This document shows, in pieces, positions 4,062-8,488 of a DNA stretch of 8,488 nt. The stretch covers positions 1-8,488 of the forward strand of contig JAUVKE010000099.1 of the NCBI GenBank assembly GCA_030592105.1, in the 5' to 3' direction. The notes below the pieces were generated by a model. The model was not told where the DNA came from and made no database searches. It worked only from the letters and a program-made list of their open reading frames with translations. The DNA is from Desulfobacteraceae bacterium (lineage in GTDB: Bacteria; Desulfobacterota; Desulfobacteria; Desulfobacterales; BuS5). A program made the translations under genes and the position numbers. Every line of letters begins with the position of its first letter. Position 1 is the first letter of the stretch.

Positions 4062-4216
4062 AGAGACCGTTGCAAAACATCCTCTTTTGCTCGATTCAAC
4101 GCGTCAGGCTTAAATTTAATTCTCGAAATACAGTCTGTTTCTGTGGTTAAACCTGATGTTAAATTTGATCGCCTTCCTTGAACTTGAATGAAATTGAACA
4201 ATTTTCAAAGGTCTCT
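4062..4216. mobile_element. MITE-like element or IS remnant, about 155 bp
   Basis: The ends form an imperfect terminal inverted repeat: GAGACCGTTGCAAAAC (4063-4078) against the reverse complement of 4200-4215, GAGACCTTTGAAAATT, 12 of 16 identical. Inside is a second inverted pair, TCAGGCTTAA (4104-4113) and TTAAACCTGA (4147-4156), 9 of 10 matching, so the whole unit can fold into a long interrupted hairpin. It encodes no protein. GAGACCTTTGCAAAA-like ends resemble those of some IS-family elements, as I recall, which would make this a non-autonomous derivative or a decayed copy. I could not identify a clean target-site duplication. It lies in the kinase operon's upstream region. Confidence 0.5.
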
Positions 4217-4375: not shown

Positions 4376-5830
4376 ATGAAAATAACAATATTTAAGCGAC
4401 TTGCATTCGGCTATGCAGCGATAATGCTGATGATTGTTTTTATGGGTGTATATCTGCCGTTTAAGCTTAAGCAGATCAATGATCTTACTCGTTCTGTCGC
4501 CGTTATAGATGGAACAAGCATAAGGATTGTCAAACATCTGCAGGAGACTATTTATGCGCAAGTGGGTTTTGGTAATAAATTTCTTATTTCAAAGGATAAA
4601 GATTTTTTTAATGAATTTAAAAAAATTCAGAATTATACCAAAGAAGATATGATAAAACTGGAGTCTCTTATAGATAACAGTAAAAAGGAAGGGGCTTTTG
4701 AAGAGGCAAAAAAATTATACCTCAATTATCTTTTCAAATTCGAGGGTGATATAAAGACACTGGAAAAGGATTCCGGCTATCCGGGCAAAAAATATATTGA
4801 GGAGAATAATCGCTTAGGAGACAAAATTAACATAAAACTGGAGCATCTTATAAAGATAGCCAGATTCGATGGAGAAAAAAAAATAGAATTGTCCAACAGG
4901 ATCAGTTCACATGTTTTTAAGGTAGCTTCTTTTATAGCAGTATTGTCAGTTATTATGGGCGTTCTGATCTCATTCTTTAATACAAAAAGCATAACGCGTC
5001 CCATACTCCTTTTACAAAAAAAAACGGAAGAAATAGCAAAAGGAAAATTTCAAAAGATCATAAATATCAATTCTCCACCTGAAATAGAAGAGCTTTCAGA
5101 TCATTTTAACAGTATGTGCGAGCGGCTGAAAGAGCTGGATAATATGAAAACAGATTTTATCAGCTATGTATCCCATGAGTTGAGAACACCTTTAACAGCC
5201 ATTAAAACAGCCGCAAGCATGCTTCGTGACGGATCCTATGCAGGCAGAAAGGACAAACAGGATGAATTGTTAGCTATTGTAAATGAAGAGTGCGCGCGAT
5301 TAATAAAATCCGTCAACCGGATCCTGGATCTGTCCCGCATGGAGGCCGATATGATGGAGTATCGTTTCAGCAAATGCTCCATTATACCGATAATTCAGAA
5401 AAGCATATTAAAGGTAGCTCCTATTGCCGAACAGAATGGAATCAATCTTGAATTAAAACCATCTCCTGATTTACCTCTTGTTATTATAGATGAGGAGATG
5501 ATAGCCCAGGTGATGGATAATCTTATAGGTAATGCATTAAAATTTACATCTGAACAGGATTTTGTGATTGTTAATCTGAGTATTTCACAAACTGAAAAGA
5601 GATTTGTAGAAGTATCGGTCTTTGACACGGGGATAGGGATTGATAAAAAACATCTTGATTTAATCTTCGATAAATTCAAACGTATTGATGAAAAAATTGA
5701 GACAGCCAGGGGAAGCGGCCTGGGCCTGTCAATAACCAAGTATATTATTGCCGCTCATGGAGGAAAGATATGGGTTCAAAGCGAACCTGGAATTGGCAGC
5801 ACATTTATCTTTACCTTGCCTGTTGCCTGA
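4376..5830 (+). CDS. glrK: Membrane sensor histidine kinase, GlrK/QseE-like
   Basis: A 484-residue inner-membrane sensor kinase. TM1 is at about 9-28, a largely helical periplasmic sensor at about 30-180 (four-helix-bundle type rather than PAS), TM2 at about 183-201 and a HAMP linker at about 202-255. The dimerisation/phosphoacceptor domain has the H-box SHELRTPLTA with His267. The ATPase domain carries the N-box DNLIGNALKF (381-390, Asn386), G1 DTGIGI (417-422) and G2 GSGLGLSI (446-453), all intact. It should autophosphorylate on His267 and pass phosphate to the response regulator of the same operon. E. coli GlrK has a similar length (475 residues) and layout; the glrK assignment rests mainly on gene order and on the regulator's similarity to GlrR. 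The ATG at 4376 is the first start after an in-frame stop (4364-4366), but no good Shine-Dalgarno sequence precedes it, unlike the two genes that follow. Kinase certain, orthology likely. Confidence 0.93.
   Translation: MKITIFKRLAFGYAAIMLMIVFMGVYLPFKLKQINDLTRSVAVIDGTSIRIVKHLQETIYAQVGFGNKFLISKDKDFFNEFKKIQNYTKEDMIKLESLIDNSKKEGAFEEAKKLYLNYLFKFEGDIKTLEKDSGYPGKKYIEENNRLGDKINIKLEHLIKIARFDGEKKIELSNRISSHVFKVASFIAVLSVIMGVLISFFNTKSITRPILLLQKKTEEIAKGKFQKIININSPPEIEELSDHFNSMCERLKELDNMKTDFISYVSHELRTPLTAIKTAASMLRDGSYAGRKDKQDELLAIVNEECARLIKSVNRILDLSRMEADMMEYRFSKCSIIPIIQKSILKVAPIAEQNGINLELKPSPDLPLVIIDEEMIAQVMDNLIGNALKFTSEQDFVIVNLSISQTEKRFVEVSVFDTGIGIDKKHLDLIFDKFKRIDEKIETARGSGLGLSITKYIIAAHGGKIWVQSEPGIGSTFIFTLPVA
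5759..5763 (+). promoter_or_regulatory. Ribosome-binding site deciding the lipoprotein start
   Basis: GGAGG at 5759-5763 lies 6 nt before the ATG at 5770, inside the 3' end of the kinase gene. It supports a start that overlaps the kinase by 61 nt. The next in-frame ATG would lose the whole signal peptide. Confidence 0.8.
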
Positions 5831-6417
5831 TATTAATATCTGTTTTTACAGGATGCGGCCATTTTCCATGCCTTTATCCAGACAAAGAGGGCCAAGCTGA
5901 AAGATATTTTACCAGAGCAGCGAAATTGATGGAAAAAGGAGATTATGAAGCATCCATAGCTGAAATTAAAAGAGTCATGCTACTATTCCCCAATAGACTG
6001 GAAAGTCAGGGGTTATTCCTTATGGGGTTGGTATATATGCATCCTGAAAACCCAGGGCGGGATTATAAAAAATCATTAGAATGCTTCATAACCCTTGGAG
6101 GTAACAGGAAGCTTGAAAAAAGCCGTACTAAAACCGAAGCATTAATTTATCGGAATTTGCTTGAGGAACTAATTGGTAAAAACAAAGAAATTAAAAAATT
6201 AAAGCATAAAATAAAATCTTTGAAAACAAAACTCATGGAACAGAAAAAAAATACTGACAAATCAAAAAATCAACAAAAAGATTTACATTCCAGGATAAAA
6301 AAACTAAAAACCCGTATAAAGGGTCTTACGGATCAGATTAAAGATCTTAAAGAAATAGATCTTGGCATTGAAGAAAAAAAGAGAAAATCTTTGGATAAAG
6401 AAACAGGTAAGCTATGA
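5770..6417 (+). CDS. qseG: Coiled-coil lipoprotein, QseG-like partner of the sensor kinase
   Basis: A 215-residue predicted lipoprotein. The signal peptide has a basic start (K4, R5), a hydrophobic core (about 12-26) and the lipobox FTGC with lipidated Cys29; Phe at -3 is slightly off consensus. Residue +2 is Gly, not Asp, which favours sorting to the outer membrane. Residues about 43-73 (AERYFTRAAKLMEKGDYEASI and onwards) look like one TPR-type helix pair, with a second weaker pair at about 77-109. From about 125 to 205 the chain is Lys/Glu-rich with coiled-coil heptad character. E. coli QseG, encoded between qseE and qseF, is also a lipoprotein with a C-terminal coiled coil and is reported to bind the kinase; this gene holds the same place. 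The overlap with the kinase and the 4-nt overlap with the regulator indicate translational coupling. Sequence identity to QseG is not obvious by eye, and the TPR-like part differs, so the symbol is positional. Role inferred: modulating kinase activity across the periplasm. Confidence 0.8.
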   Translation: MGSKRTWNWQHIYLYLACCLILISVFTGCGHFPCLYPDKEGQAERYFTRAAKLMEKGDYEASIAEIKRVMLLFPNRLESQGLFLMGLVYMHPENPGRDYKKSLECFITLGGNRKLEKSRTKTEALIYRNLLEELIGKNKEIKKLKHKIKSLKTKLMEQKKNTDKSKNQQKDLHSRIKKLKTRIKGLTDQIKDLKEIDLGIEEKKRKSLDKETGKL

Positions 6418-7763
6418 AAAAAATTCTAGTGGTAGATGATGACAAAAACATACTTAAAGTAATAAAAATGAAGCTGGAATCCGAAGGGTTCCAGGTAGCT
6501 TCATCTCTTAACGCACAAGCAGCGCTCCAAATAGCAAAAGACGAGGTTATCGATTTAGCTTTGCTTGACCTTAAGCTTAATGACAAAAACGGAATTGAAC
6601 TCATGGAAGATATTCATCAAATTAATCCGGAACTACCTGCTATCATTCTGACAGCATACGGTGCAATCGATACCGCTGTTGAGGCTATGAGAAAAGGAGC
6701 GTACAGCTATTTAACCAAACCCTTTGAGGAGGACGACCTTTTGCTGCAGATCGAGCAGTGCCTCGAAAAAGCCACGATCTCTTATGCGGTAAAGAATCTT
6801 AACAATAAAGTAAAACAGAAATACGGATTTGATAACATTGTCGGTCAAAGCGGTACAATGAAAAAAGTTATGGCCAAAGTGTCCCAGGCAGCAGCCACAG
6901 ATTCGATTGTCCATATTGAAGGAGAAAGCGGCACCGGCAAGGAATTAATAGCTAAGACCCTGCATGTGGCCAGTTCCAGAAGAGATGGCCCGTTTGTGGC
7001 TATCAATTGTGCCGCCATACCTGACAATTTGATGGAGAGTGAACTGTTCGGATATGAAAAAGGAGCCTTTACAGGCGCAACAAAACATAAAAAAGGTTTT
7101 TTTGCTCAAGCCGCCAAAGGCTCGATCTTTTTAGATGAAATATCAGAAATGCCCTTTCCCATGCAGGCAAAGCTTCTTCGGGTCATAGAAGAGAGGGAAT
7201 ATTATCCTCTGGGAAGTGAAAAAACTGTGAAAGTCGATGCCAGGATAATAATAGCATCCAATAAAGATCTTGCTAAAGAGGTGGAGAACAAGACTTTTAG
7301 GGAAGATCTCTATTACCGGATTCATGTTATCCCAATAAAGCTCCCCCCGCTTAAAGATAGAAAAGAAAGCATACCTCTGCTTGCAAAGTATTTTTTAAAA
7401 AAATATTCAAGCAAGTTAAACAAGGATGTAAGCGGTTTTTCAAAATCCGCCATGCAGAAACTTCTGCTCCACACTTGGCCCGGCAATGTCAGGGAACTTG
7501 AAAATACGATTGAATGCGCCGCAGCTCTTACCACCAAAAATATCATTTATGAAGATTTGATTCTGCAGGCCAGAGATATCAAGCCAAACGGCTTAAAGCC
7601 CTTAAAGGCTGCCAAAGAAGATTTTGAAAAAAATTATATAATTCAACTTTTTGAATTCACAAAAGGCAATGTAAGCAAAGCCGCAAAACTGGCAGGAAGA
7701 TACAGAGCCGATCTTTATGATCTTCTGAAAAAATACGGCATGAAACCTGATGATTTCAGATAG
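6414..7763 (+). CDS. glrR: Sigma-54-dependent response regulator, GlrR/QseF-like
   Basis: A 449-residue cytoplasmic regulator of NtrC type. The receiver domain (1-120) has the acidic pair Asp8/Asp9, phosphoacceptor Asp52, Thr80 and Lys102. The AAA+ domain (about 142-370) has Walker A GESGTGKE (170-177), the sigma-54 contact loop GAFTGA (217-222), Walker B with Asp241/Glu242, the FREDLYYR arginine-finger region and TWPGNVREL of sensor II. A Fis-type helix-turn-helix ends the protein. The last 45 residues (for example TKGNVSKAAKLAGRYRADLY) resemble E. coli GlrR (FELNYL...TKGNV..AARMAGRNRTEFYKLL, ending NDF) far more than generic NtrC proteins, which supports the orthology. E. coli GlrR is 444 residues. 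When phosphorylated it should drive open-complex formation by sigma-54 RNA polymerase from upstream sites. The start overlaps the lipoprotein stop as ATGA, with AGGT at 6405-6408 as ribosome-binding site. A consensus sigma-54 promoter lies about 460 bp downstream of its stop. Confidence 0.95.
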   Translation: MKKILVVDDDKNILKVIKMKLESEGFQVASSLNAQAALQIAKDEVIDLALLDLKLNDKNGIELMEDIHQINPELPAIILTAYGAIDTAVEAMRKGAYSYLTKPFEEDDLLLQIEQCLEKATISYAVKNLNNKVKQKYGFDNIVGQSGTMKKVMAKVSQAAATDSIVHIEGESGTGKELIAKTLHVASSRRDGPFVAINCAAIPDNLMESELFGYEKGAFTGATKHKKGFFAQAAKGSIFLDEISEMPFPMQAKLLRVIEEREYYPLGSEKTVKVDARIIIASNKDLAKEVENKTFREDLYYRIHVIPIKLPPLKDRKESIPLLAKYFLKKYSSKLNKDVSGFSKSAMQKLLLHTWPGNVRELENTIECAAALTTKNIIYEDLILQARDIKPNGLKPLKAAKEDFEKNYIIQLFEFTKGNVSKAAKLAGRYRADLYDLLKKYGMKPDDFR

Positions 7764-7773
7764 TTCAATCCAC

Positions 7774-7977
7774 TTTCATGAAAGCAACCGTCGGAAACAA
7801 GGATATGAAGGTGGGGATGAAATTACAGTGGAAAATCCCCGAACGTCTGTATAGCGACAACCGCACCTGGCACAGCCTTTTGAGCGCACGCCTGTTGACC
7901 ATTTCATATGTCAAATAACCTCTCCCATACCGCCCAGAACCCGGAAACATCCTCGGGAAACAAATCGTTTCATGAAA
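7774..7977. repeat. 204-bp G/C-richer block flanked by TTTCATGAAA palindromes
   Basis: TTTCATGAAA occurs at 7774-7783 (inside CTTTCATGAAAG, 7773-7784) and at 7968-7977. The sequence between is open on both strands: a 46-codon frame on plus (ATG 7778 to TAA 7918) and a 61-codon frame on minus (7950 to 7765), neither with a Shine-Dalgarno site. This looks more like an inserted or repeated element than a gene. Identity unknown. Confidence 0.35.
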
Positions 7978-8121
7978 TCCCTCAGTATTGGCAGAGGCTC
8001 TTCATAATGGGAAAGCTGTTCTGAAGAACCCTTTTCCTCAATTTCAAAAAAAGGTGAAGCAAAAAACATTCATAACAAAAATATTGTGATTACAGATAGT
8101 TAGTGTGCTTATTAGTGGAAA

Positions 8122-8135
8122 ACCAATCCATTGGT
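8122..8135. promoter_or_regulatory. Palindrome ACCAATCCATTGGT, candidate activator site
   Basis: This 14-bp sequence has perfect dyad symmetry apart from its central CC. It is centred about 123 bp upstream of the predicted sigma-54 start site, a usual distance for an enhancer-binding protein. It is not the TGTC-N10-GACA site known for E. coli GlrR, so assignment to this regulator is a guess. Confidence 0.35.
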
Positions 8136-8225
8136 GTAGGCATTTCACGTCATAAAAAACAATAGGCGAGCGTGTCGATAAAAAAATATCTATAAAATCA
8201 GATGGATATGCATCTACCCCGCAAT

Positions 8226-8241
8226 TGGCACATATATTGCT
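8226..8241 (+). promoter_or_regulatory. Sigma-54 (-24/-12) promoter
   Basis: TGGCAC-N5-TTGCT matches the sigma-54 consensus: the GG (8227-8228) and GC (8239-8240) are separated by exactly 10 bp, and all flanking consensus bases agree. Transcription would start near 8252, giving a leader of about 66 nt to the ATG at 8319. It points toward the small exported protein and stands a few hundred bases from the gene for a sigma-54 activator. Confidence 0.85.
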
Positions 8242-8318
8242 GTCCCTTAATTACTAATTGGGCTGCAAGGGTCATAAAGGCCTTTGTAAATTTAACACTT
8301 ACACAAGGAGAGCAAAAA

Positions 8319-8488
8319 ATGGAAAAAAGAATGTTTACAGGATTAATTTGTATGGTGCTGGTTGCTTTTTTGTCTGCCGTTGCGATTCACGCTGAGGGCG
8401 TTGTTATTGTAGGGACAATAATCGAGGACAATCAAATTGTTGATCAGGACGGTCAGGCCTACATAATTAAACAGAATAAAGAGGGAGA
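8319..8488 (+). CDS. Small exported protein, N-terminal part (cut by window end)
   Basis: The first 56 codons of a protein that runs off the window. ATG 8319 is preceded by AAGGAG (8305-8310) with 8 nt spacing. Residues 1-25 form a Sec signal peptide: Lys3/Arg4, a hydrophobic core (about 6-22) and a likely signal peptidase I site after AIHA (Ala25 then Glu26). There is no lipobox, so the product should be periplasmic or secreted. The mature start reads EGVVIVGTIIEDNQIVDQDG followed by QAYIIKQN, an alternating hydrophobic/polar pattern suggesting short beta strands. I do not recognise the family. It is the first gene behind the sigma-54 promoter and is therefore the likely output of the neighbouring regulator, perhaps an envelope-stress protein; that role is inference from position only. 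Confidence 0.85.
   Translation, partial: MEKRMFTGLICMVLVAFLSAVAIHAEGVVIVGTIIEDNQIVDQDGQAYIIKQNKEG

Follow-up and report, generated by a model that had tools for sequence, protein, structure and literature searches.

Genes and promoter features of the locus

The stretch of DNA analysed here, hereafter the window, comprises 8,488 nucleotides of a Desulfobacteraceae genome and displays a row of three overlapping + strand genes coding for a sensor histidine kinase, a lipoprotein-like protein and a response regulator, which is followed by a sigma-54-type promoter and the first part of a gene for a small, predicted exported protein (Table 1). The kinase is 24% identical to Escherichia coli GlrK over 298 residues (blastp, E 1.8e-24). 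The lipoprotein occupies the place of QseG in the row; it has no blastp match to QseG of E. coli within an E limit of 10, and no QseG family is found among its best 25 Pfam and NCBIfam matches. The regulator combines receiver, sigma-54 AAA+ and Fis-type HTH domains (PF00072, PF00158 and PF02954), all of which score over their cut-offs, the last narrowly (22.3 versus 22). Its best NCBIfam model is that of GlrR (NF011695; 445.9 bits, under the curated cut-off of 763), and its blastp alignment with E. coli GlrR covers 446 residues at 41% identity (E 5e-129); the HTH (KGNV..AA..AG..R...Y.LL) is similar to that of E. coli GlrR and unlike that of a second group of activators considered below. The intergenic stretch before the kinase gene (4062-4215) is 70-73% identical to stretches in the loci L052 and L142, which suggests a dispersed repeat.

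Table 1. Coordinates of the features of the window
Feature	Position	Strand	Basis
Sensor histidine kinase (HAMP, HisKA, HATPase_c), GlrK position	4376-5830	+	Pfam
Lipoprotein-like protein with TPR-like and coiled-coil stretches, QseG position	5770-6417	+	ORF; weak Pfam/NCBIfam matches only
GlrR-type response regulator	6414-7763	+	Pfam, NCBIfam, blastp
Decayed trpE-like fragment (about codons 79-135)	7894-8057	-	gaps and a frame change
Distal candidate GlrR-type activator site UAS2, TGAAGCAAAAAACATTCA	8055-8072	+	-171 from box; rank 1/8471, 13.6 bits
Proximal candidate GlrR-type activator site UAS1, TGTAGGCATTTCACGTCA	8135-8152	+	-91 from box; rank 2/8471, 11.4 bits
Possible IHF site, AATCAGATGGATA	8196-8208	+	7/9 consensus positions
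Sigma-54 -24/-12 box, TGGCACATATATTGC	8226-8240	+	pattern search, shuffles, box kept in relatives
Predicted transcript start (~8252) and 67-nt leader	8252-8318	+	-12 position rule, computed lengths
Small exported protein (predicted), first 56 codons, cut by window end	8319-8488	+	ORF, relatives

The consensus sigma-54 promoter at 8226 that a sequence-only reading of this DNA had proposed is confirmed: the GG (8227-8228) and GC (8239-8240) of the box are separated by exactly 10 nt, and both the TGGCAC-N5-TTGC form and the strict TGGCAY-N5-TTGC form occur just once in the 8,488 bases, on the + strand, where dinucleotide shuffles give 0.030 and 0.045 chance boxes per window, respectively. The earlier statement that no other full match lies in the intergenic parts thereby extends to the whole window. 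In shuffles of the intergenic region 7764-8318, a + strand TGGCAY box arises in 5 of 4000 (0.00125). When two mismatches are allowed, 7 matches are found versus 5.79 expected; these are at noise level, so that only the exact match is informative. The box begins 462 nt behind the glrR stop (7763), where about 460 had been estimated, and 93 nt ahead of the ATG at 8319, a distance within the main cluster of those seen in the family. With the transcript start predicted from its position relative to the -12 element, the computed leader agrees closely with the earlier figure of about 66 nt, and AAGGAG stands at 8305-8310 ahead of the ATG.

Conservation of the box ahead of the small gene

A profile of the small protein, searched against the 389 genomes of the order of a near relative (G001), found matches in 91 of them. 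We took 60 loci from the matches listed, picked mostly by score, and found therein 86 family ORFs (one, in L065, doubtful), of which we counted the 82 that have 200 nt or more upstream. Strict sense boxes lie upstream of 48 of the 82 family genes versus 11 of 357 other genes of the same 60 loci; on the antisense strand the corresponding counts are 1/82 and 6/357. Once similar upstream regions are removed, the strict box is retained in 33 of 60 family genes, and by kind of product it precedes 38 of 61 exported-like members and 10 of 21 others. It is also present in the nearest orthologues, namely L051, L053 and one of the two copies in L052. The 34 family genes lacking a strict box, some of which have looser boxes, were counted against conservation. 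The box first seen in this single sequence is nonetheless kept in relatives, and we conclude from the comparison of these promoters that it is a conserved feature ahead of a family of small genes with predicted exported products.

Paired palindromic sites upstream of the box

Promoters near glrR in related genomes have in common an 18-bp palindrome, TGWAGGAAATTTCCTWCA, that lies around -93 and around -171 relative to the box. A simple dyad count gave weak signals only; a palindromic motif search succeeded, recovering TGnAGGAAATTTCCTnCA from 29 sigma-54 promoters, which were hand-picked as being near glrR and include that of the window, with a log-likelihood of 213 versus 23.6-29.7 in 12 shuffled sets. 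A second matrix was made from 41 sites in the 28 promoters other than the window's, with a slight leak possible because its sites were picked with the first matrix. In the matrix scan of the window the two candidate sites take the first two ranks, the third-best position scoring 6.2 bits, and when the upstream region is shuffled 4000 times, no shuffle attains both of their scores. Both sites fall in the range of about 80-200 bp upstream that is typical of sigma-54 activator sites.

The proximal site scores at least 9 bits in 23 of the 29 promoters and the distal one in 17; the 6 without the former and the 12 without the latter were counted against a paired arrangement. The distance between the sites in the 17 promoters with both is 76-83 nt in 16 and 94 nt in one. 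Also counted against it is the fact that the sites of the window are weaker than many, with several relatives exceeding 20 bits. Orthologues that are not beside glrR retain the pair, with scores of 14.6/11.4 bits in L053, 11.4/11.4 in L051 (genome G101) and a weaker 9.4/7.9 in L052. Outside the 29 promoters, a site of at least 16 bits occurs within 500 nt after glrR in 17 of 46 loci, some of which are close kin of training loci (e.g., L153 of L154), versus 0/48, 1/44, 2/41, 1/38, 0/34 and 0/32 in six control windows under the same test; the 29 of 46 held-out loci with no strong site there count against the association. The three nearest genomes together have 93 boxes, from which 62 distinct ones, fetched with at least 200 nt upstream, were scored, the small-gene box of G001 lying outside their pattern as it ends in G. 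Both sites reach 9 bits at three of these 62: the small-gene promoters of Desulfosarcina sp. BuS5 (its identity inferred) and of G101, and a BuS5 promoter ahead of another exported protein (L249).

IHF-like sequences agreeing with the consensus at 8 or more of its 9 positions are seen in 15 of the 29 promoters, where a mean of 4.8 and a maximum of 11 arise under the null; most of the 15 lie at about -30. The copy in the window is by itself not significant, being equalled by 72% of its shuffles, and was counted against an IHF site at this promoter.

Genomic association of glrR with the promoter and the small gene

GlrR orthologues are present in 77 of the 389 genomes (E 1e-130), the closest among those searched being in G001 (89%) and BuS5 (G053; 86%). 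Both glrR and the small gene are found, among the matches listed, in 34 genomes, and in 17 of these, one of which (G215) has fragments only, glrR and a family member are no more than about 3.1 kb apart. The expectation that the exported gene would stay beside glrR in relatives is thus borne out in half of these genomes, more distant ones, and fails in the two nearest ones with glrR (G001 and BuS5), where murA and comEC stand behind glrR and the small gene lies elsewhere, adjoining a trpE-like gene (L052 and L053, respectively); these two were counted against a neighbourhood link. Overall, murA is behind glrR in 2 of 79 glrR loci, those of the two nearest genomes (L001/L140 and L141), with gaps of 17 and 56 nt by tblastn, a position that draws attention in view of the action of enteric GlrR on the synthesis of envelope precursors.

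Independently of the small-protein family, strict boxes are enriched behind glrR: they occur in the first 500 nt in 13 of 74 loci in the sense orientation and in 1 of 74 in the antisense one, with a density of 3.4 per 10 kb versus 0-1.3 in the other sense bins. The 61 of 74 full-length glrR loci with no strict sense box in this interval were counted against a general association. At the level of genomes, glrR is present in 17 of the 18 with a site-bearing family promoter versus 6 of the 26 with site-less ones only, a comparison that is not independent as many site-bearing promoters were chosen near glrR. Weighing against it is G101, a 2.2-Mb draft in which no glrR was found although its family promoter keeps the sites.

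In the window itself, the remnant of a trpE-like gene lies between glrR and the box. It is matched by two tblastn pieces of 57% and 89% identity (E 1.2e-10) and by blastn at 75-77% to L053 and L052; in L053 the full gene is divergent from the small gene, its best NCBIfam model being TIGR00564 (508.2 bits, cut-off 517.7). The fragment reaches just to the outer boundary of the distal candidate site, and the segment 8042-8488, i.e., the regulatory unit with the ORF, aligns as one block with L053 and L051. Given this decayed piece and the separation of the two genes in the nearest genomes, the closeness of glrR to the promoter is best read as a secondary rearrangement that would have spared the whole regulatory unit. 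We accordingly rejected proximity as evidence in this window, since the nearest genomes split glrR from the small gene. The link to GlrR, which the sequence-only reading had drawn from that proximity, is backed instead by the two GlrR-type sites at the conserved positions -91 and -171, which provide its strongest support. A short stretch, 8042-8058, aligns in L053 with the trpE side as well as with the promoter side, as expected after a deletion between two short stretches of similar sequence.

The small exported protein

The small signal-peptide protein reported downstream of the promoter holds up as a signal-peptide-like product: the N-terminus of the window ORF has this character when judged by eye, and three close relatives are complete at 94 residues, ending in SYELIEEQK. 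The structure model of one of the latter, P0001, is an OB fold (mean pLDDT 83.8, core blocks 95-98). Its Foldseek matches are generic OB folds (best E 1.9e-3) that include YgiW (1nnx), DUF1344 (3k6o) and potempin A (8b2m), with ssDNA-binding proteins and PriB scoring as high or higher. As the similarity does not go beyond the common OB fold, we read no function from these matches. A Pfam scan of eight family members detected no family at its cut-off: the DUF5818 model (PF19135) gives 12.8 bits for P0001 and 26.0 for the L063 member against a gathering score of 27, and some more distant relatives bear a precomputed PF19135 label. BOF, which we take to be the Pfam family of exported OB-fold proteins of the YgiW kind, is not among the matches of these eight at E up to 1. 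A sequence search of the PDB with the family profile retrieved just two chains, with E of 0.51 and 0.64. P0001 has no NCBIfam match, and no PEP-CTERM sorting signal was detected at the ends of the three relatives.

A putative GlrR-type transcription unit and its relationship to known systems

Based on the above features, we hold it highly probable that 8055-8488 forms a sigma-54 transcription unit complete in itself, of the GlrR (QseF) type and activated via paired sites. The comparative evidence supports control of the promoter by GlrR, and its dependence on both sigma-54 and GlrR is predicted. In the mechanism we propose, the kinase-lipoprotein pair would phosphorylate GlrR, which in this form would bind both 18-bp sites (-171 and -91); the DNA would be bent, possibly by IHF at about -30, and the AAA+ domain of GlrR would remodel the sigma-54 polymerase waiting at TGGCACATATATTGC. 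The outcome would be on-demand synthesis of the 67-nt leader and, in the envelope, of a small exported OB-fold protein.

This arrangement is reminiscent of the QseEGF (GlrK-QseG-GlrR) system of Enterobacteriaceae, which, in the part of the literature cited here, likewise features a kinase-lipoprotein-regulator row, several 18-bp sites, a possible IHF site and a sigma-54 box. According to this literature, QseF/GlrR regulates the sRNA GlmY and rpoE in enterobacteria; it binds three TGTN12ACA sites upstream of glmY with the help of IHF (PMC6075780, in part); its site consensus is also given as TGTCN10GACA (PMC8745638, in part). The motif recovered here, TGWAGG-N6-CCTWCA, shares its length and outer bases with the TGTN12ACA form quoted for E. 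coli, but both window sites end in TCA, and it differs in its inner bases, which are AGG...CCT rather than the C...G of the quoted QseF sites. With our motif matrix, no E. coli glmY site exceeds 3.4 bits, a result that was counted against the GlrR reading and implies that the inner site bases differ, and the TGTC-N10-GACA form is found in none of the upstream regions of the 29 promoters near glrR. Further differences from the enteric system, as far as the cited parts describe it, are: two sites at about -93 and -171 here versus three in the glmY promoter; a target that is an exported protein gene rather than glmY or rpoE; boxes that in a number of genomes here are downstream of glrR and not upstream of the kinase; and a lipoprotein without homology to QseG. 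An Rfam search of the window detected no family at its gathering score, and so no glmY. The idea of a GlrR-type output other than glmY is upheld by the comparative evidence. Thus, although the regulator scores under the curated GlrR cut-off, the kinase-lipoprotein-regulator row is, judging from these likenesses, predicted to work like the QseEGF system.

A clear precedent for sigma-54 control of exported proteins is the PEP-CTERM/PrsR system (PMC1569441, in part). The PrsK-PrsR circuit differs from ours, as the window regulator scores 399.1 bits with the PrsR model (TIGR02915), under its cut-off of 502.6, and the exported protein is one without an NCBIfam match. Closer in lineage, sigma-54 controls cell-exterior functions through many activators in Desulfovibrio vulgaris (PMC4641369, in part), a parallel from related bacteria, albeit a different bacterium, where the main text of the regulome account mentions neither GlrR nor PEP-CTERM. 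Among the open-access articles listed as matches, the titles and abstract openings hold no description of a GlrR/QseF regulon for this group. Our evidence points to a GlrR-type enhancer code that is used in a distant group and attached to exported proteins, the targets having apparently changed while the length of the sites and their arrangement in pairs remained similar. It would assign a concrete regulon to a two-component system that is an orphan among the relatives of sulfate reducers, and would supply a defined candidate binding site that can be used for searching other genomes as well as a regulatory context for an unannotated family of small exported proteins.

Alternative explanations

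The box could be a real sigma-54 promoter that is served by some other activator, for instance one of the second group encoded beside other family members. Activators in general abound in relatives, with 69, 53 and 52 activator genes in three Desulfobacteria (PMC12316311, in part), and other family members lie near ones that are only 31-41% identical to GlrR in local alignments. Moreover, family promoters without the GlrR motif have a distinct dyad of their own, GAAC-N5-GTTC, in 22 of 37 cases versus 0.12 expected. The window promoter, however, displays the GlrR-type pair at its conserved positions, and we consider another activator unlikely here. Given that GlmY is the classical output of QseF (PMC6075780, in part), it is also conceivable that the box and sites mainly drive a non-coding leader RNA rather than the exported protein. 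Against this, the 67-nt leader carries AAGGAG before the ATG, the open frame and its promoter are conserved together in other genomes and the window lacks an Rfam family at the gathering score, which together render this explanation very improbable.

The separation of glrR and the small gene in the nearest genomes, with the trpE-like fragment between them in the window, might be taken to mean that the box is a chance one by an unrelated gene or that an assembly join has united glrR with the promoter. Yet, the box and sites are kept in relatives whatever the position of glrR, the segment from 8042 onward aligns with L053 and L051 without interruption, and the gaps and frame change in the trpE-like piece bespeak decay rather than a fresh join of intact genes; we accord chance or a join only the slimmest probability.

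Other outputs near glrR and a possible second enhancer code

Strict boxes within about 4 kb of glrR also precede genes for other proteins, whose naming as FnIII-like or CheY-like reflects our reading of the sequences: 1) Exported FnIII-like proteins in L143, L146, L154, L160 and L162, with CFI-box-CTERM tails in the first four and a choice-of-anchor domain in the last; no paper on CFI-box-CTERM was found among the open-access articles searched. 2) CheY-like single-domain regulators whose genes immediately follow a sigma-54 box located downstream of glrR (L172, L174). 3) Other small exported proteins behind boxes near glrR (L178, L194). The proposal of a lineage-specific GlrR output therefore stands insofar as the output is other than glmY; it is not a single one, as several outputs are found near glrR.

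An activator gene is present in 37 of the 60 family loci, and the tree of these activators shows two groups. Members of the second group have weak receiver-domain scores and are often near promoters without the GlrR motif, in which the dyad takes the forms GAAC-N5-GTTC and CGGAA-N7-TTCCG. Paralogues with sigma-54 boxes of their own (L054, L056, L063, L068, L078 and others) include some that are exported and some that are apparently cytoplasmic. We tentatively suggest, as a possibility about which we remain rather doubtful, that paralogous small exported OB-fold proteins constitute a standing secreted sigma-54 output in Desulfobacterota, with copies wired to different activators and enhancer codes, namely the GlrR code, TGWAGG-N6-CCTWCA at -93/-171, and that of the second group, GAAC-N5-GTTC or CGGAA-N7-TTCCG. 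GlrR might then regulate the cell surface at large, through OB-fold, FnIII/CFI-box and small exported proteins, and the OB-fold protein could perhaps act back on the periplasmic kinase-lipoprotein sensor.

The L249 locus of BuS5 (400-1200) presents a second promoter with GlrR-type sites ahead of an exported protein, and a segment of about 30 bp that holds a site-like sequence is repeated there in three tandem copies.
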